Source: a virus. From it: 32,863 bases of DNA. The DNA lies in IMG/VR virus record IMGVR_UViG_3300034356_001657, positions 1 to 32,863 of that record; one strand, given 5' to 3'. Positions 1 to 14,528 of this stretch are shown piece after piece; the first letter of the stretch is position 1; each line of letters begins with the position of its first letter. Both the position numbers and the translations under genes were made by a program. The notes under the pieces were generated by a model. The model did no database searches and was not told where the DNA came from. It saw nothing but the letters and a program-made list of their open reading frames with translations.

Positions 1-582
1 TGGGGGTCTGTTGCACTGCTCCAACATCGCTTCGTATCGCGGGCCCCCTTTCAAGTACATTGTCACATGCCTAAACGGCGTCAGCATCATAGGCGACATA
101 GGCGTCGTACCGACACGGTGCATGACCGCCGAGCCGTCGGCCTTCAGTGTTATTTCTTCAATGAACTCTGGCCACCGAGCCCATACGTTCGCTAGCCGTT
201 GAGACGCAAACTTCTCTGCTTTGGTGGCCTTTACAGGGTTGATGCGAGGGATTGTGTGCTTCGGAAACCACGTTTTATTCGCGTCGAAGACGCCGTCGCG
301 TCGGATCGTGACGGGGTGTTTCAGTGCGCCGATGGCGATTACCCCCTCGGTCTCTAGCACTTGATGCCCTTTCGAGATAGCCGCTTTGGCCTCCGCTATA
401 CTCGTCACCGTTATAAAGGTGGCGCACACAGGCGTCAGCCTGACGCGGATAGTCCCTGTCTCGGGGTCGTGGTGTAACTCTACGCATGACTTTTTAACGA
501 TGAGTCTTATGAACTCGGGGTTTATTCCGGGAGTGTCGGTAATGTAGAAAGGCTCGGCTGCAGACCAGCATATTTTTTCCAT
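1..582 (-). CDS. Hypothetical phage protein, 3' end outside window
   Basis: Reading leftward from an ATG at 582 there is an uninterrupted frame of 194 codons to base 1, so the C-terminus lies outside the window. A good ribosome binding site (AGGA) lies about seven bases upstream of the ATG on the minus strand. The product begins MEKICWSAAEPFYI and continues as a mixed alpha/beta-looking soluble protein. There is no signal peptide, membrane segment or cysteine cluster. I do not recognise a family. It is the only gene immediately downstream of the inverted-repeat region at 647-909. A minus-strand TATAAT at 753-758 could drive it with a leader of about 160 bases passing through one repeat arm. 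Existence is well supported by the open frame and RBS; function is unknown. Confidence 0.75.
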   Translation of the reverse strand, partial: MEKICWSAAEPFYITDTPGINPEFIRLIVKKSCVELHHDPETGTIRVRLTPVCATFITVTSIAEAKAAISKGHQVLETEGVIAIGALKHPVTIRRDGVFDANKTWFPKHTIPRINPVKATKAEKFASQRLANVWARWPEFIEEITLKADGSAVMHRVGTTPMSPMMLTPFRHVTMYLKGGPRYEAMLEQCNRPP

Positions 583-646
583 GTGTTTTTCCTCGTGTGA
601 ATGTGTGGAGACGCAGGACATGATATCTTATGGGGTGGCGTTTGTC

Positions 647-700
647 CACTTTGACAGACGATCGACAGAAGATCGACAGATATCTGTCGCGCTGGAGGCC
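647..700. repeat. Left arm of long inverted repeat
   Basis: It pairs with 856-909. The inner 36 bases (665-700) match the reverse complement of 856-891 at 35 of 36 positions. The outer 10 bases (CACTTTGACA, 647-656) match the reverse complement of 900-909 exactly. The 8-base spacer between the two blocks has the same length in both arms but a different sequence. The arm contains the 16-bp palindrome at 674-689 and a doubled GATCGACAGA at 660-669 and 671-680. Confidence 0.9.
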
Positions 701-752
701 TAGGGAGCCGTGGGGCGACACTTGTACGACAGATAGACAGAACTTCTCAGAA

Positions 753-758
753 ATTATA
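753..758 (-). promoter_or_regulatory. Candidate minus-strand -10 box (TATAAT)
   Basis: A perfect sigma70-type TATAAT on the minus strand in the AT-rich core. No good -35 is visible 16-18 bases upstream. It points at the partial gene 1-582. If used, its transcript would cross the left inverted-repeat arm, giving an operator-like arrangement. Confidence 0.4.
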
Positions 759-784
759 ACGTACGTGAATACGAAAAGAGATAC

Positions 785-793
785 TGATATAAT
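785..793 (+). promoter_or_regulatory. Candidate plus-strand extended -10 promoter (TGATATAAT)
   Basis: A TGnTATAAT extended -10 match on the plus strand; the -35 region is poor. No plus-strand gene follows, and a transcript would run antisense to the 1061-1708 gene. It may therefore serve a non-coding RNA or origin priming, or be a chance match in an AT-rich segment. Confidence 0.35.
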
Positions 794-855
794 ATTTTCT
801 CGTATATAGAAATAGTATATTTATCTGTAGTTCAGTAGAAAACCATATACGGCGC

Positions 856-909
856 GGCCTGCAGCGCGACAGATATCTGTCGATCTTCTGTAGAAAAGGT
901 GTCAAAGTG
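856..909. repeat. Right arm of long inverted repeat
   Basis: This is the inverted partner of 647-700, with 155 bp between the inner arms. It contains the second copy of the perfect palindrome CGACAGATATCTGTCG at 867-882. Conservation of both blocks and of the spacer length, with divergence of the spacer sequence, suggests selection on two separate binding elements per arm rather than a recent duplication. Confidence 0.9.
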
Positions 910-984
910 TCGTCGACCAGGCTGCAGGCCGCGTCGTTATTGAGTTGTACCGAAAACGTATCTGTCGCACGTTGCGAGGGCCGA

Positions 985-1060: not shown

Positions 1061-1708
1061 CTAATGGTCGTCGTCTTCGGCCAAACGGCGCACAATGGGG
1101 GGATTGTACTGTTTCAGGTATTCATAGTGCTTTCGCTTCAGTGGTTTGCCTGAGTCCGGAGCACCTTGCTGTTTTTGCATGAGACGACAAACGCCCCGCC
1201 ACCCTGAGTCCTTCGCCATGATGACGCGAACGGCTTCGGCCGTGAACTCATGGTCGAGGAACCACAGGAACGTCTCCAGACGGCCTAGAAGCATCAAACA
1301 CTGGTATAGCCTACGTCTACCATTGGCTGATAGATACGCGGCCTCATAGGCTGCCCCCAGAGCTTTGCCGCAACCTAATACGGCGACAGGGTCGTCGATT
1401 TCGCAGACAGCTATCGCGATGTCGCATTTTATTCCGTCCCTAAGCATGTCGAGAACAAAATTTTCGGCTGCCTCGCGCTGTTCCAAAATGCCAATTAGCC
1501 TCGCCGTTTTATTCGAGTCTTGCTTGATAGTCAGACCTGTCCAGTGCAATCCCTGATAGAAGGCACCTAGACGGCGCGCTATGTGATTTGAGACGCGTAC
1601 GGCTGTCAGTCGGGCTAGTTTGGGGTTATTCGTTAATCTGGCCGCTTCCTGAGCGTTTAAGCTGTAGTCGTTCAGCCATTGCTTGTTTCGTTTTTTACGG
1701 TCTGCCAT
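1061..1708 (-). CDS. Hypothetical phage protein (215 aa)
   Basis: The ATG at 1708 has a strong upstream site (GTAGGAGA). The product has a strongly basic N-terminus (MADRKKRNKQW), then a helix-rich body. An alanine- and cysteine-containing hydrophobic segment lies mid-protein, and the tail is basic then acidic (RRLAEDDDH). No recognisable catalytic motif or transmembrane segment is seen. The basic N-terminus would fit nucleic-acid binding, but that is inference only. The gene lies beyond the terminator at 1751-1780 and so probably has its own promoter or depends on readthrough. Its 3' end abuts the repeat-rich non-coding region, so a role in binding that region is conceivable but untested. 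Confidence 0.7.
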   Translation of the reverse strand: MADRKKRNKQWLNDYSLNAQEAARLTNNPKLARLTAVRVSNHIARRLGAFYQGLHWTGLTIKQDSNKTARLIGILEQREAAENFVLDMLRDGIKCDIAIAVCEIDDPVAVLGCGKALGAAYEAAYLSANGRRRLYQCLMLLGRLETFLWFLDHEFTAEAVRVIMAKDSGWRGVCRLMQKQQGAPDSGKPLKRKHYEYLKQYNPPIVRRLAEDDDH

Positions 1709-2131: not shown

Positions 2132-2973
2132 CGCACTGGCTCCTGATTTGCTAATTCGGCGCGACAGTCATCGAGACGGCCGCATGATATGCTGTACACG
2201 TCTACGCCGTCAGGTAGATAAGGCGAGTCGTCGAGGTCAAGCTGGGCAAGATAGTTTTTGTCCGTTGGGTGATCGCCCCACGATGGCCAGCGATCTGGCT
2301 CGCACTCTTGCCAGCGAAAGCCGAGACGGCGCAAAAAGCACGGATGGCCTAGCGTCGCCGCGAAAACTTCACGCTGGACGTGCTGGCCTGCGCTTTTCAG
2401 CTTGACCAGTACCGACGTTTTGCGGCCGTCTTTTTCCCAGCACCATAGGCCGTAAACGTCGCAATCTATGCCTTGTGCGTCGAGGGCGTCGACCATTTCA
2501 CAGTAAGCCAACGACCGGCCGATCATGTCTTTAGCCTTGACCGTCCAGCTGGCTGACAGTTGAAAAGCGATAGACCGCACCGGATTCGGCGTAAACTCCG
2601 AACCACGGCGGATCATGCTTCTCATGTCCCCGCCGATATAGCGGGGCACGTCTGGCCGTTGGCCTGCGTAGTCGTGTACGTACCGCATCGCGGCCGCGTT
2701 TTGAGCGGCTGGCGGATTCGCTGCAGCAAGTTGCTGCATCCGTCGCGCGCCTTCCGGCCAGCCGTCGCGCAGCATGTCCAGATATTGCGGCAAGTTTACG
2801 CCATCGTCCCAGTCTTCTGACTTGCGCGCGTTTTTACCGGATCCATAACTCCCCTTGACCATTTTCGAGACGGCGCGGTGATCGTCGTCCAGTTCGACAG
2901 ATAGCATAGTTACCAGCGAAGGGAGATCGGTCTCGTAAACGCGGTTAAACTCGTCTTGCTTGATAATATTCAT
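2119..2973 (-). CDS. VWA-like partner protein of MoxR-type ATPase (DUF7192-like)
   Basis: The chosen start is ATG 2973, which forms an ATGA overlap with the stop of the AAA+ gene upstream. An in-frame TTG at 2991 lacks a better RBS. The 284-aa product has an N-terminal helical part with GWPEGARRM (about residue 71) and VPRYIGGDMRSMIRRGS (about 109-125). A strand FQLSASW (137-143) follows, then the amphipathic helix IGRSLAYCEMVDALDAQGID and a strand DVYGLWCW. This order resembles a von Willebrand A fold whose DxSxS metal site begins with Q138 instead of Asp. MoxR/CobS ATPases usually work with VWA partners, and the coupled position supports that. The DUF7192-like assignment is from memory of similar phage proteins and is not proven here. 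Confidence 0.7.
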   Translation of the reverse strand: MNIIKQDEFNRVYETDLPSLVTMLSVELDDDHRAVSKMVKGSYGSGKNARKSEDWDDGVNLPQYLDMLRDGWPEGARRMQQLAAANPPAAQNAAAMRYVHDYAGQRPDVPRYIGGDMRSMIRRGSEFTPNPVRSIAFQLSASWTVKAKDMIGRSLAYCEMVDALDAQGIDCDVYGLWCWEKDGRKTSVLVKLKSAGQHVQREVFAATLGHPCFLRRLGFRWQECEPDRWPSWGDHPTDKNYLAQLDLDDSPYLPDGVDVYSISCGRLDDCRAELANQEPVRCPT

Positions 2974-4055
2974 GGTTTGATCTTGTCCCAAGTTGCTTGA
3001 TCTAAGCCGTTGCGGACGGCCAATTCTACAGCGCGATCGGTCGGGTAAATCTGCAGGAATTTTTGTAGACGTCGCGTCGCCCGCGGGCTGATTACATGGC
3101 GGACGTTTAACGAGGCCGCTTTACTGCGGATCCCCTGTACAATCTCGGACGGGATGCGACCATATAATGCGGTCTCCATGTCTTGATCATAGTTCCAGTC
3201 GATTTCCGTGAAGCGGTCTTTAAACGCGCCATCCTGACGGGCACGCCCCGTGTACGTCTGATCCGCACCTAACATGCTGGTATTACCTGCGGCCATCGGT
3301 TTGAAGTCTGGATGGCGTTTCACCTTGCCACAAGGGAACTCGTAGCTGGTGCCCTCTATTAAGTTTAAGAAGGCTGTCAGGGCGTCCGGTGCGCTTGCGT
3401 CGACTTCATCCCACAGGAACACGCCGCCGTCTTTATACGCGGCGTATAGGCTAGACGATTGGTAGTTGCCGTTGGCATCTTTAAAGCCTATCAGGTCGTA
3501 CTTAGAATCCACTTTTCCGGTGTGATAAAACTCCAGCCCGAAAGATTCGGCCGCCATTTCTGCGGCGGTAGACTTGCCAGAACCAGCAGGCCCTTTCAAG
3601 TATGGTGGTTCGCCGATGTTTAATAGCTGGATCAGTAATCCTAAACTGCCGTGCGCCGGACGGCCTGCGAAGTCATAAGGTGGTAAGCTCTCGATCTGGA
3701 TCGTCACTTGACGGTCTGGCAGCATGCTGGCGACAATTTCACGTATTTTCGTCTCGTCTATTGCCGCCGGTTGAGTGAATAACGCTAGCGCGTCCTGTAG
3801 TTTTTTCATCGCTTCTGAATTGTCCGCCATGGGTTGTGTCTCCTGTTTTGCGGGTTGTGGTTTAACTTGTTGTGGTTGTGGCTGGCCTAGTCGAGCGCTG
3901 ACCAACGCGTTTAAATCGGCTGGACGGTCTACGCATTGCAAAAAATCCGCTTTTGTTGCGAATTTCACCAGCGAGGCCTGCGCACCATTGGCAATAAACC
4001 AGCGTTTTATGTCTGATCTATTGCCTGCAAAGTCGCTTAAAATCTTGTCTCTCAT
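2970..4055 (-). CDS. MoxR/CobS-like AAA+ ATPase
   Basis: The start at 4055 is chosen for its AGGGGA site; an in-frame extension to 4163 would run through a palindrome and the stop region of the preceding gene. The product is 361 aa. Residues 1-50 form a helical N-terminal domain, followed by a Q/P-rich linker (about 57-76) and the AAA+ core. Visible motifs are Walker A GPAGSGKS (155-162), Walker B GVFLWDEVDAS (211-221), sensor 1 AAGNTS (255-260), arginine finger R281 in KDRFTEID, and sensor 2 SPRATRR (323-329). In the MoxR/CobS family these ATPases remodel or insert metal into target proteins together with a VWA-domain partner. The next gene (2119-2973) looks like that partner. In phages the client is not known. 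A palindrome (4088-4111) sits 33 bases upstream of the start. Confidence 0.92.
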   Translation of the reverse strand: MRDKILSDFAGNRSDIKRWFIANGAQASLVKFATKADFLQCVDRPADLNALVSARLGQPQPQQVKPQPAKQETQPMADNSEAMKKLQDALALFTQPAAIDETKIREIVASMLPDRQVTIQIESLPPYDFAGRPAHGSLGLLIQLLNIGEPPYLKGPAGSGKSTAAEMAAESFGLEFYHTGKVDSKYDLIGFKDANGNYQSSSLYAAYKDGGVFLWDEVDASAPDALTAFLNLIEGTSYEFPCGKVKRHPDFKPMAAGNTSMLGADQTYTGRARQDGAFKDRFTEIDWNYDQDMETALYGRIPSEIVQGIRSKAASLNVRHVISPRATRRLQKFLQIYPTDRAVELAVRNGLDQATWDKIKP

Positions 4056-4087
4056 AAAATCCCCTTTTTGGGTTAGTAAAACCAGCG

Positions 4088-4111
4088 AAGCGCACCGGAT
4101 CCGGTACGCTT
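4088..4111. promoter_or_regulatory. Intercistronic palindrome, copy 1
   Basis: A 24-nt near-perfect palindrome with a single mismatched pair, centred on CCGGATCCGG. It lies 12 bases after the stop of the 4123-4512 gene and 33 bases before the ATPase start at 4055. On the minus strand it is followed by GGTTTTACT, as in copy 2. There is no long U run, so a strong intrinsic terminator is unlikely. An RNA-processing or stability hairpin, an attenuator or a protein-binding site are the main alternatives. Confidence 0.75.
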
Positions 4112-4122
4112 GACTTGTGTCA

Positions 4123-4512
4123 CTAGTAGACAGGGCGGTAATAAGTCTCGTCTGGATAGACAAGGCAGACGCAAACCACGGCCGCTTCGTCCATACATTT
4201 AAACGCCGTCACAATGCCGTCTACGATCGCCCGTGGATAGGTCTGGACGTCTTGCGACCCAATCCAGACGTTTGTCAGATAGACCGCGCCGTCTTTTTTC
4301 GCCGCGTTGAAGGTCGAATAGTCGTGCTGGCGGTAGATCGCTATCTGATAAAACGCGTCAGACTCGCGCACTGAGTAGTCGTAAGAGATGCAGCCGCTCA
4401 CGTCGTGCACCAGTTCAATCCCAGCGATTACGGCGTTTTTCTGGTCTTCGGTTTGCACGATCTCGTATGAATAGCGCGAGTTTTCGTCGTTGTTGATTTC
4501 AATTAAATACAT
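4123..4512 (-). CDS. Hypothetical phage protein (129 aa)
   Basis: The ATG at 4512 has an AAGGA site eleven bases upstream. The product is acidic and rich in Tyr, Ile and Val (MYLIEINNDENSRYSYEI, YQIAIYRQHDY, YPDETYYRPVY). A hydrophobic stretch AAVVCVCLVY lies near the C-terminus, more like a buried strand than a membrane segment. I recognise no family. It lies between two palindrome-separated blocks of the leftward operon, so it may be expressed at a different level from the ATPase pair downstream. Confidence 0.7.
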   Translation of the reverse strand: MYLIEINNDENSRYSYEIVQTEDQKNAVIAGIELVHDVSGCISYDYSVRESDAFYQIAIYRQHDYSTFNAAKKDGAVYLTNVWIGSQDVQTYPRAIVDGIVTAFKCMDEAAVVCVCLVYPDETYYRPVY

Positions 4513-4538
4513 GGCGTTAAATCCTTGTTAATTAGGGT

Positions 4539-4775
4539 TCAATTTAAGTGGAACAGTTCGACAGTTGCGACAATAGCGCGAAGTTGTTCGTAGACGGCCG
4601 ATCTGGTGGTGCGTCCGGCAATGTCGCGGCCTGTGCCGTCCGCCTCGGCCTGTAGCATAGCGCCGCCGTAGGCATAGTCGACCCGTAGACGGTGCGCAGC
4701 ACCAGCTGCAGCAAGCGCAGCGTTGATCTGATGCAGCTGGTGCGCGATGTCTTCTTTCGTGATTCGTGCGGACAT
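4539..4775 (-). CDS. Small hypothetical phage protein (78 aa)
   Basis: The start is set at ATG 4775 because the AGGA site lies ten bases upstream. The ATG at 4784 would sit directly against that site, and longer in-frame starts would run through the palindrome at 4808-4833. The product is a mostly helical small protein, MSARITKEDIAHQLHQINAA at the N-terminus, then an alanine-rich turn and a C-terminal helix. A different-frame open frame over the same bases (4528-4935) is arginine- and cysteine-rich, lacks an RBS and is taken as a shadow. Function is unknown. Confidence 0.65.
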   Translation of the reverse strand: MSARITKEDIAHQLHQINAALAAAGAAHRLRVDYAYGGAMLQAEADGTGRDIAGRTTRSAVYEQLRAIVATVELFHLN

Positions 4776-4807
4776 AATGGTCATTTCCTGTATTGAGTAA
4801 AACCGAC

Positions 4808-4833
4808 ACAAAGCACCGGATCCGGTGCGTTGT
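4808..4833. promoter_or_regulatory. Intercistronic palindrome, copy 2
   Basis: A 26-nt palindrome with one mismatched pair and a perfect 16-bp core GCACCGGATCCGGTGC (4813-4828). It lies eight bases past the stop of the 4841-5044 gene and 33 bases before the next start at 4775, the same distance as copy 1 from its start. AGTAAAACC (plus strand) is also conserved at an identical offset from the centre in both copies (4075-4083 and 4796-4804). Confidence 0.8.
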
Positions 4834-4840
4834 AGCTGTT

Positions 4841-5044
4841 TCACTTGCCAGAATCCCAAGCTGCAGCGTGAATAGCTGCAGCGAGACGGACAAAGCGCAC
4901 GCCGTCGATCTGGCGCACCATGGCCAGCGCTTCATCGTTGGCGACGATGTCGGACGCGTCGCAACAGCAAAGCAAAACTTCGGCCTCGTGCTGGGTCAGC
5001 TGTTCCGCGTGGAATTGCTGCAAAATAAATTCAGGTTTGAACAT
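4841..5044 (-). CDS. Small hypothetical phage protein (67 aa)
   Basis: ATG 5044 is preferred over an in-frame GTG at 5053 because the TAAGGAG site lies eight bases upstream of the ATG. That site is inside the last codons of the 5050-5295 gene, so the two are probably coupled. The product (MFKPEFILQQFHAEQLTQHE at the start) is helical and acidic, with a CCC run (residues 26-28 approximately) and an alanine-rich C-terminal helix. The three adjacent cysteines are unusual for so small a protein and could bind metal, but there is no paired Cys/His motif. No family is recognised. Confidence 0.7.
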   Translation of the reverse strand: MFKPEFILQQFHAEQLTQHEAEVLLCCCDASDIVANDEALAMVRQIDGVRFVRLAAAIHAAAWDSGK

Positions 5045-5049
5045 GGCGA

Positions 5050-5295
5050 TCACTCCTTACCAAAGCGTGCGACAGTGTCGCGCTTGATCTGGCAAACGGT
5101 TTTAAACTTGGCTATCACTTCACGGCCGTTGCCGCCGTGGGCAACTTCCATCGTAACGCCGTTATAGCCGATCCAACGGCTCAACGGACGGCCGCCACAG
5201 CTGACCCACTGCCCGCGCTGCAGCTTAAGACGGCCTGATGTGATAGCCGCATGCGTCTCGGCGTCCCACAGGTTTACCACTGGCAAATACTTCAT
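5050..5295 (-). CDS. Small hypothetical phage protein (81 aa)
   Basis: The ATG at 5295 is preceded by GGGAG eight bases upstream. That site lies inside the end of the 54-aa gene upstream, whose stop is at 5299. The product begins MKYLPVVNLWDAETHAAITS and has the look of a small beta-barrel fold: LQRGQWVSCGG, a GYNGVTMEV strand and a basic C-terminus. SH3-like or DNA-binding folds are possible but unproven. Function is unknown. Confidence 0.7.
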   Translation of the reverse strand: MKYLPVVNLWDAETHAAITSGRLKLQRGQWVSCGGRPLSRWIGYNGVTMEVAHGGNGREVIAKFKTVCQIKRDTVARFGKE

Positions 5296-5298
5296 GGT

Positions 5299-5463
5299 CT
5301 ACACTCCCACAGCTAAAACGGAATCGACAACGGACGGGCAACGGCCCTCGGCCATAAGCTCAACCAGAACCAGCTGGCAAGCCGTCTCGGCGTTGTCTGC
5401 GGACTGCATACGCTCAGTATGCTGGCCGCGGTCGAAAGTCACATAAACGTAGAATTGGCGCAT
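5299..5463 (-). CDS. Small hypothetical phage protein (54 aa), first gene of leftward operon
   Basis: This small frame reads from ATG 5463 to TAG at 5299-5301 on the minus strand. It has an excellent AAGGAG site nine bases upstream. The product begins MRQFYVYVTFDRGQHTER and contains a hydrophobic helix AETACQLVLVELMAEG. Its 3' end carries the RBS of the next gene, and the stop-to-start gap is only three bases, so it belongs to the operon. It is probably the promoter-proximal gene, since the divergent control region begins directly upstream. No family is recognised. Confidence 0.7.
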   Translation of the reverse strand: MRQFYVYVTFDRGQHTERMQSADNAETACQLVLVELMAEGRCPSVVDSVLAVGV

Positions 5464-5496
5464 CTCTTAAACTCCTTAGTTAATCGAGCCTTAATA

Positions 5497-5511
5497 GTAG
5501 CAATCTGCTAC
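5497..5511. promoter_or_regulatory. Operator-like inverted repeat at left edge of control region
   Basis: GTAGCA-ATC-TGCTAC: two 6-bp arms with a 3-base centre, 34 bases upstream of the first leftward start codon, where a promoter or operator is expected. The 12-mer CAATCTGCTACC (5501-5512) recurs at 5894-5905 just before the first rightward gene. The shorter GCAATCTGC recurs at 5522-5530. Confidence 0.5.
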
Positions 5512-5586
5512 CTAATAGCCAGCAATCTGCGACGAATCTACAGAAACAAGCGACGAATTGCAGGCCGTCGCCCCGTCTCGGCGTCT

Positions 5587-5705
5587 CACTGGGGCGCACG
5601 GTCTACCGGTCAGGCCGTGCCAGCCGTGCCACTGGGGCGCACGGTCTACCGGTCAGGCCGTGCCAGCCGTGCCAGCCGTGCCCCGTCTACCCGTCAGGCC
5701 GTGCC
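5587..5705. repeat. 43-bp tandem duplication with degenerate third copy
   Basis: Bases 5587-5629 and 5630-5672 are identical 43-bp copies (beginning CACTGGGGCGCACGG). A shorter relative covers about 5673-5705 and carries an extra copy of the 9-bp CCAGCCGTG. The array is very GC-rich and non-coding. Exact identity implies either recent duplication or homogenisation. Confidence 0.9.
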
Positions 5706-5711
5706 TGTCTC

Positions 5712-5787
5712 GGGGCTTAGGGGGTAGGGGGCTTTGCTGAAACAGGGGGGCACCTATTCGGGGGGCGGGTGAAAAAACCAGGGAGGG
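5712..5787 (+). other. G-tract cluster, potential G-quadruplex
   Basis: Eight runs of three to six G occur on the plus strand: 5712-5715, 5720-5724, 5727-5731, 5745-5750, 5760-5765, 5767-5769, 5781-5783 and 5785-5787. The first three are separated by loops of four and two bases. Such spacing can form a G-quadruplex in single-stranded DNA or RNA. No coding explanation is seen. Confidence 0.55.
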
Positions 5788-5893
5788 TGTTGCGTATGGT
5801 GTATGGGGCTGTCACACACTCACTCTGTAAACGCTACTGAGTTTATTCCGTATCTGCACCGGTCGTATCCGTCGCAGCTGTTGCATCAGCCGA

Positions 5894-5905
5894 CAATCTG
5901 CTACC
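5894..5905 (+). promoter_or_regulatory. Repeat of operator-like 12-mer before late operon
   Basis: CAATCTGCTACC, identical to 5501-5512, about 25 bases upstream of the small terminase start. It falls between a weak TTGCAT (5881-5886) and TACCAT (5902-5907), so a bound protein could affect late transcription. Confidence 0.45.
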
Positions 5906-5930
5906 ATGAAAATATCCAAGGGAGAAACGT

Positions 5931-6797
5931 ATGCAACTACAGAGAAAACAGCTCGGTCTTGTTCAAACAGACTGGGAGATTCAAGAAGGGGAACTGCAGC
6001 TGAGCGCCTTGTCGGCCAAGCTCACCGCAAAGGACCTGAAGGTAATCAACTTCTTCATGGAAGGCCACCCACTGATTGAGTGTGGAACGCTCGCCGGATA
6101 CTCGGCCGAAGACCCACGGGTGATCCCCCGTCTCGTCCGTAACGTGCTCGAGAAGCCTGAGTCTCAGCAATTCATGGAAGTCGCTAAACGCGTCTACACC
6201 CAACGAGCAATGCAGCAAGTCTGCTATGACAAAATGAATTGGATGGCCGACATGCAACTCGTGTTGGGTAAAGCACTGGGCCGCGAGAAAACGAACTTTG
6301 TTGCGGTAGCCGACGGTGAAGTGATTGAACGCCGAGTCACGAAAGACGATTTAAACGCCGCGAAGTCGACATTGGAACTCATGGGCAAAGCGTTCGGATG
6401 GATGACCGAAAAACGCGAGCTCACGGTCGAGCACCGGGCAGTCGTCCGGGTCCGGGACTTCTCAGGCAAAGGCAACCACTTGGACGTGTCTGCGGCGTCG
6501 TCGTCAGACGAAGCGTTGCTGGAGCAAATCAACGAGCAGATGATTGCCGAGACAGAACTACTGGACGGCAAGTACCAAACGCGTGATCCTGAAAAAATTT
6601 ATTACGACTCTGATGACTTCCCGACCGTAAAACCGGGAGACCCTGAGCCGCCAGCATGGGACCGACCCGTCTCGATAGACGACGACCCGGGCCCGGTCTG
6701 CACGCCATTTGGTCACGTAAGAGCAGGCGTGGTTCGCGCGCCGGTCGCGGTAGACAACGCTCCGGCTATCCCTAAACAAACGCCGGACTGGGACTAA
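5931..6797 (+). CDS. terS: Terminase small subunit
   Basis: The ATG at 5931 has an AAGGGAG site seven bases upstream. The 288-aa product fits small terminases. Its N-terminal helix-turn-helix-like region has LTAKDLKVINFFMEG and AGYSAEDPRVIPRLVRNVL (about residues 30-70), then KPESQQFMEV and central helices for oligomerisation. The C-terminus is Pro- and Asp-rich and looks disordered (about 225-288). Small terminases recognise the packaging site on concatemeric DNA and recruit the large subunit. This gene is first in the rightward operon, beside the repeat-rich region that could hold its cognate site. It is separated from the large subunit by the lysis cassette, which is less usual than direct adjacency. 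It is long for the family, mainly from the tail. Confidence 0.75.
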   Translation: MQLQRKQLGLVQTDWEIQEGELQLSALSAKLTAKDLKVINFFMEGHPLIECGTLAGYSAEDPRVIPRLVRNVLEKPESQQFMEVAKRVYTQRAMQQVCYDKMNWMADMQLVLGKALGREKTNFVAVADGEVIERRVTKDDLNAAKSTLELMGKAFGWMTEKRELTVEHRAVVRVRDFSGKGNHLDVSAASSSDEALLEQINEQMIAETELLDGKYQTRDPEKIYYDSDDFPTVKPGDPEPPAWDRPVSIDDDPGPVCTPFGHVRAGVVRAPVAVDNAPAIPKQTPDWD

Positions 6798-6799
6798 CC

Positions 6800-7174
6800 A
6801 TGGCTACACTACCTGAAGGCGCACCATTCAAAGCTAGCGAGTTCAGCTGCCGTTGCGGTTGCGGTCTCGGACTGAAAGACGTCCCGCAGTCAACGATAGA
6901 CAAATTGGTAAAGGCTCGTGCAATTGCCAAAGTTCCGTTTATAATCGATTCAGCTATCCGGTGCGTAACGCATAACACGAAAGAAGGCGGCGCGAAGAAC
7001 AGCGCCCACTTGCGAGGTTACGCGTTAGACATCCGAGCTCGGGACTCCCGCACTCGGTACAAGATACTGACAGCCTTGCTGGCTGTAGGATTTACGCGGA
7101 TCGGATATAACAAAAAATTTATTCATGCCGACGACGACCCGTCGCTAGACCCGGAGGTGATTTTTGACTACTGA
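6800..7174 (+). CDS. M15 family peptidase, probable endolysin
   Basis: The ATG lies two bases after the terminase stop. The 124-aa product matches the Peptidase_M15_3 / D-Ala-D-Ala carboxypeptidase-like fold. The zinc site reads SAHLRGYALDI (68-78; H70 and D77) with the third ligand H109 in IHADDDP. Upstream there is FSCRCGCG (15-22) and the substrate-side SAIRC (51-55). Such enzymes cut peptide bonds in peptidoglycan. No signal peptide is seen, so export should depend on the holin encoded next, the usual arrangement for a cytoplasmic endolysin. Length is typical for single-domain phage M15 enzymes. The C-terminal codons overlap the next gene, including its TTG start. Confidence 0.9.
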   Translation: MATLPEGAPFKASEFSCRCGCGLGLKDVPQSTIDKLVKARAIAKVPFIIDSAIRCVTHNTKEGGAKNSAHLRGYALDIRARDSRTRYKILTALLAVGFTRIGYNKKFIHADDDPSLDPEVIFDY

Positions 7175-7217
7175 GAACCGAGTGACTACTGAGAACCGAG
7201 TGACTACTGAGAACCGA
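7164..7217 (+). repeat. Three 18-bp tandem repeats over the holin start
   Basis: NTGACTACTGAGAACCGA occurs three times in frame (7164-7181, 7182-7199, 7200-7217), with a fourth GTGACTAC beginning at 7218. The first copy starts with TTG and the others with GTG, so each unit begins with a possible initiation codon. Confidence 0.9.
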
Positions 7218-7439
7218 GTGACTACACAAGCCGATACCGAAAAACCATGGTACGAGTCCAAAACAATTATCGGTGCAGTCGTGGCCGTCGGTAGCGGCCT
7301 TGCCGCAGCCTTTGGCGTCGTCTTAGCGCCAGAGGACCAATCGGCTATCGTAGACGTCGTCGTCGCGTTAGGCGCTTCTGTAGGCGGTCTATTGGCCATC
7401 TACGGACGAGTCAAAGCCAAAACGACGCTTCGCAAATGA
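7164..7439 (+). CDS. Holin-like membrane protein, TTG start within an 18-bp repeat
   Basis: The best start is TTG 7164, six bases after a perfect GGAGG (7153-7157). No ATG exists before the membrane part. The 91-aa product begins with three TTENRV repeats from an 18-bp tandem repeat, then KPWYESKTIIGAVVAVGSGLAAAFGVVL (first membrane segment, about 32-52) and AIVDVVVALGASVGGLLAIYG (second, about 61-81). It ends in a basic tail. Two segments with a short polar loop and a basic C-terminus fit class II-like holins, which open the inner membrane so the endolysin can reach peptidoglycan. In-frame GTG codons at 7182, 7200 and 7218 could give shorter forms. It overlaps the endolysin by 11 bases. Confidence 0.75.
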   Translation: MTTENRVTTENRVTTENRVTTQADTEKPWYESKTIIGAVVAVGSGLAAAFGVVLAPEDQSAIVDVVVALGASVGGLLAIYGRVKAKTTLRK

Positions 7440-7633
7440 ACACCGTACTCAAAATACTGGGGGCACTTGCAGATGCGTACAGAGCATGGCAATCGTTACG
7501 TCGTACAGACCAGCATCATCGCACTGACGCTGATCCTGAGTCTGAGTGGATGCGCCAGTTCGGTGCCGTGCCAAGCGACAAAACCGACGCTGGAAAGTCT
7601 GACGTTCCAAAACGGACAGATGACAGTCAGTAA
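7436..7633 (+). CDS. Small protein overlapping Rz1-like gene (Rz-position, 65 aa)
   Basis: ATG 7436 forms an ATGA overlap with the holin stop, strong evidence for coupling. The 65-aa product has an amphipathic N-terminal helix (MNTVLKILGALADAYRAWQS), then a charged part with DADPESEWMRQFG and a Lys/Asp-rich tail. A clear transmembrane span is absent, so it is not a classical i-spanin, though it sits where Rz usually overlaps Rz1. Small proteins with an aspartate-tryptophan-FG motif are common at this place in phage lysis cassettes, but their role is unclear. Most of its length overlaps the lipoprotein gene in another frame. Confidence 0.6.
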   Translation: MNTVLKILGALADAYRAWQSLRRTDQHHRTDADPESEWMRQFGAVPSDKTDAGKSDVPKRTDDSQ

Positions 7634-7715
7634 AGATGACTCGGCCAAACTACTGAAGTATATTAACGACTTAGAGTATTGTGCCCACAACAGGATAGAA
7701 ACCAATGGACGATAA
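7473..7715 (+). CDS. Rz1-like o-spanin lipoprotein
   Basis: ATG 7473 is chosen because it gives a compact signal peptide; an in-frame TTG at 7467 is an alternative, and the RBS (GGGGG) is modest. The 80-aa product has a basic N-terminus, hydrophobic core (SIIALTLILS) and a lipobox LSGC, so it should be lipidated on the cysteine and sent to the outer membrane. The mature part has a LTFQNGQMTVSKDDSAKLL segment followed by YINDLEYC, a pattern seen in Rz1/LysC-type o-spanins. O-spanins pair with an inner-membrane partner to fuse the outer and inner membranes at the end of lysis. The partner may be the tail-anchored protein encoded next or the overlapping 65-aa protein. Confidence 0.75.
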   Translation: MRTEHGNRYVVQTSIIALTLILSLSGCASSVPCQATKPTLESLTFQNGQMTVSKDDSAKLLKYINDLEYCAHNRIETNGR

Positions 7716-8130
7716 CCCGCAGTTAACAGCGCTGCTGCAAAGCATACAGCAGTCGGTCTACGGCAATCGACAGGATACGGCAAGCCTGAAAGAGTCAGTG
7801 TCGGACATGGCACGGTCGGTGATGGAGTTAGCCAAAACATCGGTGCGTTACGAAGAACGACTGATGCACATAGAGGCCCGGATGGAGAAAGACATACAGC
7901 AACAAGCTGACCAGTTGTCCGAACTAACCGGCGAGTTCAGGGAGGTAAGGGAAGATATCAGCCAGCTAACGCAAGACCTGCAGTCACTGGCTAACACGGT
8001 AAAGACCTTGCAAGAAGACTATCAAGAGCGAAAGGACAGCCAACGCTGGCTAGTTCGTGAAATCGTGGGTAAGTTAATTTGGCCAGCTATGGCGTTAGCA
8101 GCAATGGCGCTGCTTTGGTTCAAGGAGTAA
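7705..8130 (+). CDS. Tail-anchored coiled-coil membrane protein of lysis cassette
   Basis: The ATG at 7705 overlaps the lipoprotein gene by 11 bases and has an AGGA site. The 141-aa product is a long, heptad-rich helix (about residues 15-115; RMEKDIQQQADQLSELTG and ISQLTQDLQSLANTVKTLQ). It ends with a hydrophobic segment KLIWPAMALAAMALLWF (about 123-139) that should anchor it in the inner membrane. The layout resembles XhlA-type proteins and could serve as an i-spanin with a C-terminal rather than N-terminal anchor. The position directly after an Rz1-like gene favours a lysis role. Without a homologue search I leave the function open. Confidence 0.65.
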   Translation: MDDNPQLTALLQSIQQSVYGNRQDTASLKESVSDMARSVMELAKTSVRYEERLMHIEARMEKDIQQQADQLSELTGEFREVREDISQLTQDLQSLANTVKTLQEDYQERKDSQRWLVREIVGKLIWPAMALAAMALLWFKE

Positions 8131-8139
8131 GCGCCGTCT

Positions 8140-9600
8140 ATGTTTGAGTTTCGGTTCAGTCCCGCAGGCCCTGTGCTAGACGAGTATATGTCTAGCCGTA
8201 GCCGCAACACGTTTATCATGGGCCCTATGGGCTCCGGTAAAACATTCGCCAGCTGCATGCGTATGTTTACGCAGATATGCAGCCAGCCGGTAGACCAGTT
8301 CAATAAACGTCGGTCTCGCTGGGTCGCGGTACGGAACACGTACCCTGATCTCGAAGGTACGACCATGAAAGACTGGCTAGAGCTGTTCGGCGCGCCAGAA
8401 CTGGGTAAAATGAACCGAGACTACCCGCCGACGCACAAGCTATCGTTTGCCATGGAAGACAACACCTACGTCGAAGCCGAGGTCGTGTTCTTGGCACTGG
8501 ATAGGCCGGACTCAGTGCGTAAGTTACGCGGTATGCAGTGTACCGGCTTCTGGCTGAACGAGGTCAAGGAGCTCGACGAGGAGATCGTCGATATGTGTGA
8601 CTTACGTCACGGCCGATATCCGAACAAACATGAGGTGCCGGGGTACTGGCACGGTATGATAGGGGACACAAACGCCCCTGACGACAACCATTGGTACTAC
8701 AAAAAAGCCGAAATAGACCGGCCGAAAGGCTGGGTTTTCCTGAAACAGCCCGGCGGTCTACTGCAAATAGACACGCCGACCGGCAAACAGTGGGTACTGA
8801 ACCCGCGAGCCGAAAACTTGCAGAATTTACCCGAGGATTATTACACCGCCGGTATGCAAGGCAAGAAAGAAGCGTGGATAAAGGTCAACTTGGCCAATAT
8901 GTACGGCCATTTATCGAGCGGAAAGCCGATTTACGAGCACGATTGGAACGACACGACCCACGTCAGCCAGTACCCGCTGGTCCCGCTACCCGAAAAAGGG
9001 AATTTTTTCATGGGTTGGGACTTCGGGATGACCCCGTCTGTCATCATCGGCCAGTTAGACGGTCCTCAGATGCGGATCCTAGACGAAGTGGTAGGCGAAA
9101 ACATCGGTATTCGGTCTTTTGCACGAGACTACGTCATCCCATACCTGCGACAGCAGTACAAAGGGGTCTCGCTGAAGTCGTTTCGGTGTATGTGCGACCC
9201 GTCAGGCGACGACCCAAGGGACACTGAAGGCGGATCCCCCATAGAAATCCTGAACGAACTAGGTTTCGAGGCCGAACCGTCGCCTACGAACCACCCGGAA
9301 ACGCGGTGGGAGGCCGTCAGGTACTTCCTGTCTCGTCTCGTTGGCGGTAGACCGTGCTTTGTGTTGTCGCCGAATTGCGATACACTTCGCAAAGGGTTTA
9401 ACGGAGGCTACCAGTTCAAACGGATGCAGGTCTCCGGCCAAGCAAGGTACAGCGAGAAGGCAGACAAGAACAGTTTCTCGCACCCGCACGACGCTTTGCA
9501 GTATTTGTGTCAAGCAGCGTGGGGCGGATACAACCCGATGAACACAGGGCCAAAAGTCCACGTCTCAAATCAACGCGTTACAGGAAAAGCGGGTTATTAA
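8140..9600 (+). CDS. terL: Terminase large subunit
   Basis: The 486-aa product is a clear packaging ATPase-nuclease. The ATPase domain has Walker A GPMGSGKT (28-35) and a Walker B-like TGFWLNEVKE (135-144; E141 probably catalytic). The RNaseH-like nuclease domain has acidic residues in MGWDFGMTP (D294), CDPSGDD (D353) and HPHDALQYL (D451), which would hold the two metals. It pumps DNA into proheads through the portal and cuts concatemers. The start is ATG 8140 with an AAGGAG site overlapping the stop of the preceding gene; the spacing is long (about 12). Length and motif order are normal for a Terminase_6-type protein. The portal gene follows two bases after the stop. Confidence 0.95.
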   Translation: MFEFRFSPAGPVLDEYMSSRSRNTFIMGPMGSGKTFASCMRMFTQICSQPVDQFNKRRSRWVAVRNTYPDLEGTTMKDWLELFGAPELGKMNRDYPPTHKLSFAMEDNTYVEAEVVFLALDRPDSVRKLRGMQCTGFWLNEVKELDEEIVDMCDLRHGRYPNKHEVPGYWHGMIGDTNAPDDNHWYYKKAEIDRPKGWVFLKQPGGLLQIDTPTGKQWVLNPRAENLQNLPEDYYTAGMQGKKEAWIKVNLANMYGHLSSGKPIYEHDWNDTTHVSQYPLVPLPEKGNFFMGWDFGMTPSVIIGQLDGPQMRILDEVVGENIGIRSFARDYVIPYLRQQYKGVSLKSFRCMCDPSGDDPRDTEGGSPIEILNELGFEAEPSPTNHPETRWEAVRYFLSRLVGGRPCFVLSPNCDTLRKGFNGGYQFKRMQVSGQARYSEKADKNSFSHPHDALQYLCQAAWGGYNPMNTGPKVHVSNQRVTGKAGY

Positions 9601-9601
9601 C

Positions 9602-11818
9602 ATGGCTGAAAGCAAAATCGTTATCACAAAGCAGCTTGTCAAGAAGACATACGGCCACGACTACACCGACGGCGCGTTAGACAAGCTGGCCCAAAAGGTC
9701 GAGGAAGATATCGCCACGGCAATATCGGACCGGTGGGAAGCCGAAGAACGGATGCGTCGAGCGCTGATGATCTACAACGGCGAGTACGAACCCGAACAAC
9801 TCAAAGCAATGAAACGGTCTCAGGTATTTATCAAGGTAGCCCGGTTCAAGGCCAACGTCGCTGAAGCTCAGATGGTCGACATCGTCATGCCGCCCACGGA
9901 TACGAATTTCGCAATGGAGCCGACCGAGATTGTAGACCTTGACTTCGGGGCTAACGCTAGCGAGCCGGTCTCACTAAACGGTCGGCAGTTCCTGATGCCT
10001 GACGGCAGCCCGGTGACAGGCGATACGTTAATTCGCCGCAGCAAGGAGGTCGCCGAGGAGCGCTGCCGCAACATGCTGCGACTAATCAAGGACCAGCACA
10101 CTGAATGTAACATGGACGCGGAGCAACGCGACGTGATCCACAACGGCGTGAAGCTGGGAACCGGTGTACTCAAGGCCCCGGTGGTTAAACCTTCGCAGAA
10201 CCGTCGCTTTTTGGAAACTAAAAACGGCATGCAGATGGTCGCGGAGACCGTCTACAAACCGGCAGCGACCAGCGTATTCCCGGGCAACTTCTTCCCTGAT
10301 ATGTCCGCCAGCACAGTCTCTGAGTGTGAGTACATCTGCGAGCGGACTTTCATGTCTCGCAAGCAGCTGCGCGATCTGAAGCGTTTCGGCGGTAAAACGT
10401 ACAACAAAGTGCAGCTGGATAAAGTTCTCGACATGAAGCCGGACCAAACGCAACACAGGCCCGGCGCTACCGACGACATGCGGTACATGATGGGCTTCAA
10501 CGCTGCGCTGAACGACACCCGATACGAAGTGTGGGAGTACCACGGCGTTATCGAACCGAGCATCTACACTGAAATCACCGGCAAGGAAGTGAAGCAGTCA
10601 GATACTAACGACGATATGTACGGCGTTATCTACTACTGCGGCGGCATTGTGTTCGGCGCACGGTTCTACCCTGTCACTTATGAGCAGACGTTCCCGTATA
10701 ACGTGTGGAACTGGGAAAAGTCAGACGGCTGCATCTTCGGTAAAGGTATTCCAGAAATTCTGGAAGACGAGACCGACATGATCAACTCAAGCTGGCGCAT
10801 GACCATGGACAACGCGGCCATCACAGCAGGCCCTCAAGTGGCCGTGAATACATTGCTGTGCGAACCTGAAGACGGCGTCTACGAGATAACCCCTTGGAAA
10901 GTATGGAAAGTTAAACGCGGTAACGTCGATTTAAACCAAGCGATCAGCAAGGTTGAATTTAATAGCCGCATCAACGAAACCATGAGTATCTACCAAGCGG
11001 TCCGGCAGATGGCGGACGAAGTGTCAGGCGTGCCGATGATACAGCAAGGCGAGTCAAGCAGCCCATACCAGCAGGTCGGTGCGTTGTCTATCCTACTGAA
11101 CGCAGCGAATACGGTCCGCCGTCGCCAAGTGAAAGACTGGGACGATAACATCACAGTACCTATGGTGAGCGGCTTCTATGCGTTTAACATGGACTTTAGC
11201 GACGACGCGTCAGTCAAGGGCGACTTTAAGGTCAAAGCCCGCGGGGTTAGCGAGCTTCTGGTCCGTGAACAGCAGGCGCTGGCTCTGACGAACTTCCTGA
11301 CTGTGTGCAATAACAGCCCGTCACTGCAACCGCTACTGGCCATCAAGCAAAAAGAAATTATCGCGTCTTTCGTGAAGACCCAGCGTCTTGACGCAAGTCT
11401 GATCCCGACTGCCGACGAGATAACGGACTACATTGAGAAGCAGAAACAAAGTCAGCCGGTAGACCCGAACGTACAACTCGCGCAAATCCAGACTGAACAG
11501 ATCACGCTGAAGCACCAGAACAACGTAGAGCTTGCCCAAATCGAAAGCAAGCTGCGTCAGACCGAACAGCAAAGCACCAATGAGTCCAAGATGGTCATGG
11601 CGCAGGTCGAGTTCGAACGGATTGCGATGCAGGAACGCGTCGAGCTTCAACGCTTGGCGTCTCAGCAGTTGATTAGTGAACAAACGCTGATCACAAAAAT
11701 GCAAGAGACCGAAGCTAAACTGGCCGATAGTCGCCAAAAATTCTTGGCAGAAATCAACATAAAACGTGCAATGGGCACCGAAGCTAACTTCGGATTAGAG
11801 ACGGGAGCTGCAACTTAA
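9602..11818 (+). CDS. Portal protein
   Basis: The 738-aa product follows the large terminase directly, the expected place for the portal. It has an N-terminal helical region (KLAQKVEEDIATAISDRWEA), a wing/stem core with ERCRNMLRLIKDQ, an NVWNWEKSDGCIFGKGIPEI segment and DETDMINSSWRMTMDN (about residues 397-412). These are typical of podoviral portals. The C-terminal 120 residues are Gln/Glu-rich coiled coil (VQLAQIQTEQITLKHQNN onward), like the long barrel of P22-type portals. Twelve copies would form the packaging and ejection channel. The length suits podoviral portals with a barrel. The stop overlaps the next small ORF in TAATG. Confidence 0.9.
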   Translation: MAESKIVITKQLVKKTYGHDYTDGALDKLAQKVEEDIATAISDRWEAEERMRRALMIYNGEYEPEQLKAMKRSQVFIKVARFKANVAEAQMVDIVMPPTDTNFAMEPTEIVDLDFGANASEPVSLNGRQFLMPDGSPVTGDTLIRRSKEVAEERCRNMLRLIKDQHTECNMDAEQRDVIHNGVKLGTGVLKAPVVKPSQNRRFLETKNGMQMVAETVYKPAATSVFPGNFFPDMSASTVSECEYICERTFMSRKQLRDLKRFGGKTYNKVQLDKVLDMKPDQTQHRPGATDDMRYMMGFNAALNDTRYEVWEYHGVIEPSIYTEITGKEVKQSDTNDDMYGVIYYCGGIVFGARFYPVTYEQTFPYNVWNWEKSDGCIFGKGIPEILEDETDMINSSWRMTMDNAAITAGPQVAVNTLLCEPEDGVYEITPWKVWKVKRGNVDLNQAISKVEFNSRINETMSIYQAVRQMADEVSGVPMIQQGESSSPYQQVGALSILLNAANTVRRRQVKDWDDNITVPMVSGFYAFNMDFSDDASVKGDFKVKARGVSELLVREQQALALTNFLTVCNNSPSLQPLLAIKQKEIIASFVKTQRLDASLIPTADEITDYIEKQKQSQPVDPNVQLAQIQTEQITLKHQNNVELAQIESKLRQTEQQSTNESKMVMAQVEFERIAMQERVELQRLASQQLISEQTLITKMQETEAKLADSRQKFLAEINIKRAMGTEANFGLETGAAT

Positions 11819-11985
11819 TGCGCGCAATAACTTGGCAAGAGCTAGAAAGTAAAATAAACTCCGTAATTAACGAGACCAGAGACGAGCTGGAGACGGCGCA
11901 GAGTTTTGAAGAACTCAAAGCCCTTCAGGCAAAACTCGAACTGGCCAGAGACTTATTACAGCATTTTAAACGTGACTCCGCATAG
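11818..11985 (+). CDS. Small coiled-coil protein (55 aa) between portal and scaffold
   Basis: A small frame begins at ATG 11818, sharing one base with the portal stop (TAATG), and ends in TAG at 11983-11985. The product, starting MRAITWQELESKINSVINET, is almost entirely an amphipathic helix with heptads (FEELKALQAKLELARDLLQHF). A GGGAG site lies about ten bases upstream. Neighbours and overlap indicate co-translation with portal and scaffold, so a head-assembly role is likely, though no family is recognised. The frame fills what would otherwise be a gap of about 175 bases. Confidence 0.65.
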   Translation: MRAITWQELESKINSVINETRDELETAQSFEELKALQAKLELARDLLQHFKRDSA

Positions 11986-11993
11986 GACTCCGC

Positions 11994-12953
11994 ATGAACC
12001 TGAAAGATGTAAACCTAGAAATTAAAGCCGAAGTAGACGAAATGGCTACTTTATGGGGCGCGGAAGGCTCAGACCACACTGACCCTGCTGCGGATTCCGA
12101 AAACGGCGATGACAGTTTTGAAAGCACTGACGAGTCGAACGAAGACCCGAGCCAGAAAAAAGCCGACACACCGGTAGACGAAACGCCCGCAGCCGAAACG
12201 CCAGCGGCCGAAACGCCAGCCGAAGAAATCGACTTCACGCCGCCAGCATGGATGGCGCTGCTGCCTCAAGAGGTCCGAGATCAGGCAGAGAAAGACTTTA
12301 AAAACAGTCGGGGCAGCGTAAAGGCGCAGAGTAATCGCGTCTCTCAGTTGACCAAGCACTTGGAAGAAACTCGAGCGCAGTTAGACAAGGCGAAACGGCT
12401 GTCGCAAACTCTACCGACCATCGACCTAGCGTCCGACAAGGACTTGGAAGAACTCGGGAAAGAGTGGCCAGACGTTGCACAAAGCCTGAAGGCCGTCGCC
12501 AGCAAACTTGGCGCACAGGTAGCCCAGCACAACGCGAGTATTTCGCAGTCGCTGTTGGCCGCGCAAGAGAATCAAGCAAGAGCACTGGAGACGGAGATTG
12601 CAGAGCTCGACGAAGCATCGAAGAACGAGCAACGGGCTATCGTACAGCGCCAAGTGCCTGACGTAGACCAGATTGTGCGGGACCCGAAGTTCGGAGCGTG
12701 GCTTACTGCCCAAACCCCGGGCGTTCGAGCGATGATTAACTCGCCGCACGCAGGGGATAACATCACGTTATTCAAACTATACAAGGGGGCTACGCAAGCG
12801 GCACCGTCAAACAAAGACAAGCTGGCCGAGTTTGCAGAATTGCCGAGTAAAGGCGGCGCAACGAAGGCGGCGAGTCTGAAAGACGACCCAAATGCTGATC
12901 CTACTGAATTTTGGAAAGACTTCGAGACACAACAAAAACAGTCTCGTAAGTAA
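11994..12953 (+). CDS. Capsid scaffolding protein
   Basis: The 319-aa product precedes the major capsid gene. It has the usual scaffold layout: a highly acidic, low-complexity N-terminus (about 1-75, including PAAETPAAETPAEE), a central coiled coil (about 98-215: VSQLTKHLEETRAQLDKA and LETEIAELDEASKNEQRA) and a small C-terminal part with PNADPTEFWKDFETQQ that may bind the coat. No protease motif is seen. Scaffolds guide procapsid assembly and leave before maturation. An AGGA site lies upstream of ATG 11994; the stop is 15 bases before the capsid start. Identity rests on composition and position rather than a signature motif. Confidence 0.75.
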   Translation: MNLKDVNLEIKAEVDEMATLWGAEGSDHTDPAADSENGDDSFESTDESNEDPSQKKADTPVDETPAAETPAAETPAEEIDFTPPAWMALLPQEVRDQAEKDFKNSRGSVKAQSNRVSQLTKHLEETRAQLDKAKRLSQTLPTIDLASDKDLEELGKEWPDVAQSLKAVASKLGAQVAQHNASISQSLLAAQENQARALETEIAELDEASKNEQRAIVQRQVPDVDQIVRDPKFGAWLTAQTPGVRAMINSPHAGDNITLFKLYKGATQAAPSNKDKLAEFAELPSKGGATKAASLKDDPNADPTEFWKDFETQQKQSRK

Positions 12954-12968
12954 ACAGGAGTAAGCAAC

Positions 12969-13991
12969 ATGGCTTTATACGGCGACGCAAGTATCACCCC
13001 CCGCATTGGCTTCTTAGCTGAGAAGAAAATGCTGGAACACGCAGAACCAATTTTGGTTCTTAATAAGTTCGCGATGTCAAAACCACTGCCACGTAACGTA
13101 GGTACTTCGGTTATGTTCCGCCGTCCAGTCCCTCTGGCGCTGGCTACCACGCCTTTAACTGAGAACGTGACACCGCCGCAGACGACTTTCGCTTACGAAA
13201 ACGTACCTATTGCGGTCAACGAGTACGGCGCGTGGATGGGATTGACCAACAAAATCACTGACTTGCACGAAGACCCTGTCGGTTCTGACATGGCCATGTT
13301 GTCAGGGGAGCAAGCGGCTGAAACTATCGAAATGATCATGCACGGCGTGGTCGTGGCAGGTACGCAGGTTATCCGTGCGAACGGTGCAGCTCGTACTGAC
13401 ATCAACACCGGTCTGACTTTAGGTCACGTCCGCCAAGCGGTCCGTACCTTACGCCGTCAACGCGCTAAGAAACTGACTGAAGTGTTAGCAAGCTCACCAA
13501 ACTACGCGACTCGCGCAGTCGAAGCGTCTTACGTGGCTATCTGCCACTCAGACTTAGACTACGCAATCCGCAGTCTGGCAGGCTTCACGGCGGTAGCTAA
13601 CTACGGCAACCGTCAGCCGTTATGCGCCGAAGAAATCGGGTCGGTTGAAGACGTGCGCTTCATCACTTACCCACTGTTCGCACCGTTCATGGGCCAAGGC
13701 TCACTGACTGTCGGCTCGAACTTGAACTCTGCGGGCGCTGGTGGCAACCGCGTAGACGTCTACCCAATCTTAGTATTAGGTAAGCACGCGTTCGGCGCTA
13801 TCGCACTGAAGGGCTCAAGCGAGTTCGGCGGCGCAATCAAGCCGATCGTTCGTCAACCGGGCACTGCGGACTCTAACGACCCGCTGGCACGTTCAGGCTC
13901 AGTAGCTTGGAAAACGTGGTTCGGTTGCGGCATCCTGAACCAAAACTGGATGGTTCGTATCGAAGTCGCAGCGCTGGCAGTACCATCGTAA
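12969..13991 (+). CDS. Major capsid protein, N4-gp56 family (HK97 fold)
   Basis: The 340-aa product has the hallmarks of N4-gp56-type coat proteins. An early KPLPRNVGTSVMFRRPVPL segment (about 38-56) is followed by VTPPQTTFAYENV and EYGAWMGLTNKITDLHEDP. A distinctive C-terminal block reads GGAIKPIVRQPGTADSNDPL then SVAWKTWFGCGILNQNWMVRIE. These proteins form the icosahedral shell. A strong AGGAG site lies upstream, codon usage looks even and high-expression-like, and a hairpin terminator follows directly, as expected for the most abundant virion protein. Length matches the family (roughly 330-420 aa). Confidence 0.93.
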   Translation: MALYGDASITPRIGFLAEKKMLEHAEPILVLNKFAMSKPLPRNVGTSVMFRRPVPLALATTPLTENVTPPQTTFAYENVPIAVNEYGAWMGLTNKITDLHEDPVGSDMAMLSGEQAAETIEMIMHGVVVAGTQVIRANGAARTDINTGLTLGHVRQAVRTLRRQRAKKLTEVLASSPNYATRAVEASYVAICHSDLDYAIRSLAGFTAVANYGNRQPLCAEEIGSVEDVRFITYPLFAPFMGQGSLTVGSNLNSAGAGGNRVDVYPILVLGKHAFGAIALKGSSEFGGAIKPIVRQPGTADSNDPLARSGSVAWKTWFGCGILNQNWMVRIEVAALAVPS

Positions 13992-14006
13992 TCGACTGAA
14001 AACTAG

Positions 14007-14029
14007 AGCCGGGGGAGACCCCGGCTTTC
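14007..14029 (+). terminator. Hairpin terminator after major capsid gene
   Basis: An 8-bp GC-rich stem (AGCCGGGG / CCCCGGCT, 14007-14014 with 14019-14026) with a GAGA tetraloop is followed by only a short TTTC. Position 15 bases after the capsid stop supports a leaky intrinsic terminator or a 3'-end stabilising hairpin, which would keep capsid mRNA above downstream genes. Confidence 0.7.
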
Positions 14030-14057
14030 GACATTAGCAAACATCACCGAGAACACC

Positions 14058-14528
14058 ATGACCAGAAACAACGCTAAAAAATTAGGCAAGCCTAAGCTGT
14101 TGGCCCAAGTTAAAGCCGAGCTAGGCGTAGACTTACCGAACGACCTGACCGTCGACAAGATCCTTGACTACATGCAAGAACAAGGGTTGTTGGACGTAGA
14201 AGACGTTGAAGGTGCCGCTGACGCCGAGGTCGATACTGACTTCGTAGACGCGTTAGAAGGCGTCACCCACGTCAAGCTGCTGGTTCACGAAGACGCGGAC
14301 TTAGGTCGCAACTACGTGACCGCGTCAGACGAACACGGTAACGCATTTCAGATTATGAAAGGCGCAGAAGTGACCGTCCCTATAGGCGTATACCACTCGC
14401 TGAACGACGCTAAAGCGACCGTGTTCGACAGCAAGACTGACGACACTGGCCAGCTGATCATGCGCCCTGTCAGCCGCCACACGCACCCATTCAGCGTTAT
14501 CGGCTTCATCAAGAAGAAAGGCAAATAA
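14058..14528 (+). CDS. Capsid-associated hypothetical protein (156 aa)
   Basis: This is the first gene after the capsid terminator. The product has a lysine-rich helical N-terminus (KKLGKPKLLAQVKAELGVDL), an acidic linker (VEDVEGAADAEVDTDFVDA) and a beta-rich C-terminal domain with THVKLLVHEDADLGRNYV, KGAEVTVPIGVYHSLNDA and HPFSVIGFIKKK. Proteins of this size right after the coat gene are often head decoration or head-completion proteins; the acidic linker between two modules would fit a decoration protein. No family signature is recognised, so this is context-based inference. The RBS is weak (GAG). Confidence 0.6.
   Translation: MTRNNAKKLGKPKLLAQVKAELGVDLPNDLTVDKILDYMQEQGLLDVEDVEGAADAEVDTDFVDALEGVTHVKLLVHEDADLGRNYVTASDEHGNAFQIMKGAEVTVPIGVYHSLNDAKATVFDSKTDDTGQLIMRPVSRHTHPFSVIGFIKKKGK

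Follow-up and report, generated by a model that had tools for sequence, protein, structure and literature searches.

A non-coding inverted repeat with phased GACAGA sites around an unstable A+T-rich core: a possible replication origin in an uncultivated podovirus-like phage

The window analysed here is an entire viral record of 32,863 bases, a partial genome without end repeats that derives from an uncultivated podovirus-like phage of a poorly described group. Genes for the terminase, the portal and an N4-type major head protein can be recognised (Table 1), and gene direction is leftward in 1-5.3 kb and rightward in 5.9-32.9 kb. The element described below sits in a non-coding gap of about 480 bp, in a genome that is compact elsewhere, between genes 1061-1708 and <1-583, both of which read leftward as the original prediction had stated. 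A strong intrinsic terminator on the minus strand (1758-1780) lies immediately upstream of gene 1061-1708 and would isolate this gene and the element from the leftward genes upstream; directly downstream of the same gene are 2.4 perfect copies of the 20-mer CCAGATTCGGACCGAGACGG (985-1032). Searches for relatives of the two flanking genes gave none that was recognisable. A weak match of the 1061-1708 product to L003 (34% over 72 residues, inside a 1333-aa gene) is uninformative, and the single-sequence structure model of this product is poor (pLDDT 43) and unusable for structure searches.

The element is built on a long inverted repeat, the 54 nt arms of which are complementary at 47 of 54 positions (87%), lie 155 nt apart and have their axis of symmetry at 778. 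Matching is complete over the outer 10 positions (647-656), is lost over an 8-nt spacer (657-664), and holds at 35 of the 36 inner positions (665-700). A chance origin is excluded by the inverted-repeat score of 33, as none of 60 Markov-simulated windows scored above 14. Each arm contains the palindrome CGACAGATATCTGTCG, which is found at no third place in the record. The repeat finder and the letters themselves thus bear out the inverted repeat as it was first described, including its palindromes.

One word, GACAGA (TCTGTC in reverse), builds both arms as well as a mirrored pair of sites between them. Nine of its 24 copies in the window fall within 653-966, which is the tightest hexamer cluster of the window, and the element also holds four of the seven CTGTC-N6-CTGTC-like places found on both strands of the window. 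In each arm three tandem units with an 11-bp period run outward from the palindrome; both arms retain the palindrome and units 1 and 3, which are nearly identical, while unit 2 has drifted. The equal-length but unrelated 8-base spacers, from which selection on two elements per arm had been proposed, are accounted for by this drifted middle unit, with helical phase being what is kept. The proposal of separate elements is therefore supported, but the arms consist of phased 11-bp tandem units, and a further mirrored pair lies between them. The members of this inner pair (CGACAGATA and CTACAGATA) are mirrored about the axis of the arms to within one base, and shuffles of the right half produce the right-hand mirror site with a frequency of 0.0004 (0.04%).

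Table 1. Features of the element, its flanks and recognised virion genes (window coordinates)
Feature	Coordinates	Strand	Details
Left arm	647..700	.	Outer unit CACTTTGACA (647-656), middle unit, inner 36 nt with palindrome
Right arm	856..909	.	From repeat finder and letters
Palindrome, left copy	674..689	.	CGACAGATATCTGTCG
Palindrome, right copy	867..882	.	CGACAGATATCTGTCG
Third copy of the arm's inner GC-rich edge	921..937	+	GCTGCAGGCCGCG; inverted relative to 849-865; repeat finder
Left tandem array	651..679	-	Read leftward: CTGTCGATCTT CTGTCGATCGT CTGTCAAAGTG, third unit with CTGTCAA; 11-bp period
Right tandem array	877..909	+	Read rightward: CTGTCGATCTT CTGTAGAAAAG GTGTCAAAGTG; 11-bp period
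Inner left sites	717..742	.	GACACTTGTACGACAGATAGACAGAA; contains GACAGATA at 728-735
Inner right site	822..830	-	CTACAGATA; mirror of 727-735 (CGACAGATA) within 1 nt
Outlying single site	959..967	-	CGACAGATA
AT-rich core, candidate unwinding element	741..850	.	26% G+C; TATAAT at 788-793 (+) and 758-753 (-)
Best sigma-70-like promoter	620..648	-	TGGACA-17 nt-TATCAT, 10/12; reads into gene <1-583
Upstream gene	1061..1708	-	215 aa; candidate binder by position only
Downstream gene	1..583	-	Cut by contig end
Terminase	8140-9600		Recognised
Portal	9602-11818		Recognised
N4-type major head protein	12969-13991		Recognised

The core is the most A+T-rich 110-bp stretch of the window, the mean G+C content of which is 56%, and it holds the least stable 100-bp stretch, 5.5 SD above the mean; the AT-rich core that had been reported is thus an extreme of the window in both A+T content and instability. 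Its curvature, as predicted with a wedge model, is ordinary. The back-to-back TATAAT boxes that had also been pointed out are present, but they are weak evidence of promoters, as the best -35 matches are 3/6 and both boxes together are expected in 7% of shuffled cores. The best sigma-70-like promoter lies outside the left arm, which its -35 touches; the nearest tandem unit has its centre some 42 bp upstream of the start inferred for this promoter, and the last array unit is 20-25 nt from candidate -10 hexamers. No outward promoter was found at the right arm. A search for DnaA and IHF sites gave a single one-mismatch DnaA match and no convincing DnaA box.

Phage records, plasmids, viral contigs and 84,980 genomes yielded no relative that carries this region. 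Neither an exact arm piece searched in viral contigs nor blastn of the element against phages and plasmids gave anything credible, and the 19-mer and the paired palindromes found no copy of the element in the 84,980 genomes and viral contigs; the single hit of the palindrome in viral contigs is to an RNA phage (L023, judged from its proteins) and is attributed to chance. Contig IMGVR_UViG_3300033992_000498 (L004; 17,178 bp) is 100% identical to window 4466-21643 and is a second assembly of the same phage, which begins at 4466 and so lacks the element. The nearest relatives, Pseudoalteromonas phage vB_Pun_Y3 (L008; OR779980.1) and contig G003, have only virion genes in common with this phage. 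Both carry O-like replication genes, annotated in Y3 and recognised in G003 by sequence resemblance only. Within the O gene of Y3, the early region of which is lambda-like, five 22-bp palindromic iterons (TTACCCGAAAACGGGTA) are followed by an A-rich stretch with AAAAGAAA repeats (46188-46353); by its layout this would be a lambda-type origin, the array being of the kind described for ori-lambda (PMC5043065). The A+T-richest stretch of Y3 is the cro control region and not the iteron array, so that A+T content alone cannot tell an origin from a switch. No inverted repeats comparable to the element were found in L004-L010 or in the Y3 regions examined.

We tentatively favour the view, drawn from anatomy, that the element is a theta-type replication origin with symmetric initiator arrays, and give it a probability of about 0.4. 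The clustering of the word, the phased units in both arms, the inner mirrored pair and the non-coding location all argue for an origin, as does a core that lacks good -35 boxes. Phased initiator sites adjoining an A+T-rich region define the origins of lambda and of iteron plasmids (PMC5043065), and both parts are present here, in the 11-bp units of the two arms and in the adjacent, easily melted A+T-rich stretch; Y3 has an array of this sort as well. A phage initiator would bind GACAGA/TCTGTC cooperatively in the phased tandem units that flank the core, with the palindrome serving as the nucleating site. Facing each other, the two initiator assemblies would melt the core between them, allowing the replication machinery to be loaded there, plausibly in both directions. 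Melting is preferred to static bending because the core is the least stable DNA of the window yet is not especially curved. An initiator bound at the left arm could in addition regulate the neighbouring leftward promoter, as those of iteron replicons often do, and origin and control roles may coexist.

There are nonetheless observations that speak against an origin. The cognate initiator gene of an iteron-type theta origin is usually close by, and no recognisable initiator, helicase loader or other replication gene was found in the 32.9-kb partial contig, which also holds no recognisable repressor or recombinase; since Y3 and G003 carry O-like replication genes, an origin could be located in the part of the genome that is absent from the contig. 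Iterons have a period of about 22 bp, and an 11-bp tandem period is commoner among transcription regulators. The GC skew of this partial genome has no clear turning point at the element and so lends no support, nor does the search for DnaA boxes, and the cro region of Y3 illustrates that A+T-richness is not by itself the mark of an origin.

It is rather unlikely that the element is a phage origin of true two-fold symmetry, with equal tandem initiator arrays flanking a single melting core outside genes, and with a layout like that of eukaryotic-virus origins instead of the one-sided, lambda-type layout seen in the closest sequenced relative. Lambda-type origins (ori-lambda and the Y3 O-gene array) share with the element repeated palindromic initiator sites in helical phase and an adjoining A+T-rich stretch. 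In Y3, however, direct iterons of about 22 bp lie on one side only and inside a coding gene, whereas the element is intergenic, its short 11-bp units form mirror-image arrays to the left and right of the core, and no O gene was recognised in the contig. In herpes simplex OriS and OriL, an AT-rich spacer is also flanked by inverted binding boxes (PMC12543377), but the boxes, the protein, the virus class and the spacer length are unrelated, and the likeness is one of layout only. Plasmid iteron origins and the origin of PLE, a phage satellite, likewise have repeated binding sites in a non-coding region, although these are mostly direct repeats, whereas the core of the element lies between inverted arrays.

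A promoter-control region of the same anatomy is almost as likely as an origin, on account of the adjoining promoter and an 11-bp tandem layout that resembles PhoB/OmpR-type operators. A regulator of the phage or its host would bind the CTGTC units at the -35 of the gene <1-583 promoter, activating or repressing it, and assemblies on the distant mirrored array would meet by looping over the core or would control the weak core promoters. The position of the sole good promoter relative to the left arm and its nearest unit favours such an arrangement. PhoB/PhoP-type regulators bind tandem 7+4 nt units with an 11-bp period, and the PHO-box word of E. coli is CTGTCAT (PMC4415409, PMC4832192). The tandem units have this 7+4 nt form and period, and the best PHO-box match of the window (14/18) lies inside the element at 732-715, but that match is away from the promoter, the array units score 11-12/18, the word is CTGTCGA, and the distance to the -10 differs from that usual for PHO boxes. 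Although a PHO box or similar OmpR-PhoB-type operator resembles the element in its tandem 11-bp period, the word CTGTC and an adjoining promoter -35, it has no palindrome, mirrored second array or AT-rich core, and a PHO-type array leaves the palindrome, the mirrored copy and the extremely unstable 110-bp core unexplained. A control region is further disfavoured by the lack of an outward promoter at the right arm, by a core that is not unusually curved, and by the distance of 193 bp between the palindromes, which does not correspond to complete helical turns of 10.5 bp. A replication origin and a symmetric repressor switch were the functions first suggested, and both fit the anatomy; the back-to-back promoter part of that suggestion is weak.

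Other explanations are much less probable. An inserted MITE-like miniature inverted-repeat element, or an RNA hairpin processed between the two genes, would suit a 263 bp feature with terminal inverted repeats and an AT-rich interior, and the region as RNA folds far better than shuffles (z -12.5). The record nevertheless has one copy and the 84,980 genomes and viral contigs have none, inspection by eye gives no convincing target duplication at 646/910, no Rfam family matches, five adjacent mismatches break the stem, and there are additional sites within the core and beyond the arms (727, 822, 959), so that we consider this improbable. We give as little credence to an invertible segment, in which a recombinase would flip the core between the inverted arms and so switch a promoter: 30 contiguous identical nt, spacers included, are indeed inverted around approximately 155-200 bp containing TATAAT boxes, but the core promoters are poor, the palindromic sites have no direction, a diverged middle unit breaks up the arms, and neither a recombinase in the window nor a second copy of the region was found. 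Clustered repeated sites without a gene, in a symmetric layout, might also mark a partition site or another nucleoprotein landmark with a centromere-like, packaging or segregation role; this too is very unlikely, as no ParA/ParB-like pair adjoins the element and an unstable core would not be needed, and the giant gene at 28843 that resembles the 'DdrB-like ParB superfamily' gene of Y3 is 28 kb away in the virion block.

If the favoured reading as a replication origin is correct, a mirror-image origin can occur in a phage related to Y3, which uses a one-sided origin of the lambda type, and the element would be a ready-made target for finding the initiator. As a control region it would instead represent an operator of phased tandem units that is present in duplicate around a core that melts. 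On either reading this remains a prediction, of a compact and testable element in a little-described podovirus-like group.

The left part of the genome has other features of note. GC-rich tandem 43-bp repeats (5587-5705) are located where the leftward and rightward genes diverge, and near the leftward genes there are two 50-nt copies (4075-4124 and 4796-4845), 74% alike, each carrying the palindrome GCACCGGATCCGGTGC and, after it on the minus strand, T-rich DNA; these are probably paired terminator or processing elements. A MoxR/CobS-like AAA ATPase (phrog_249; 2970-4163) adjoins a DUF7192 protein (2119-2991), which is distantly related to proteins of Rhizobium, mycobacterial and staphylococcal phages.
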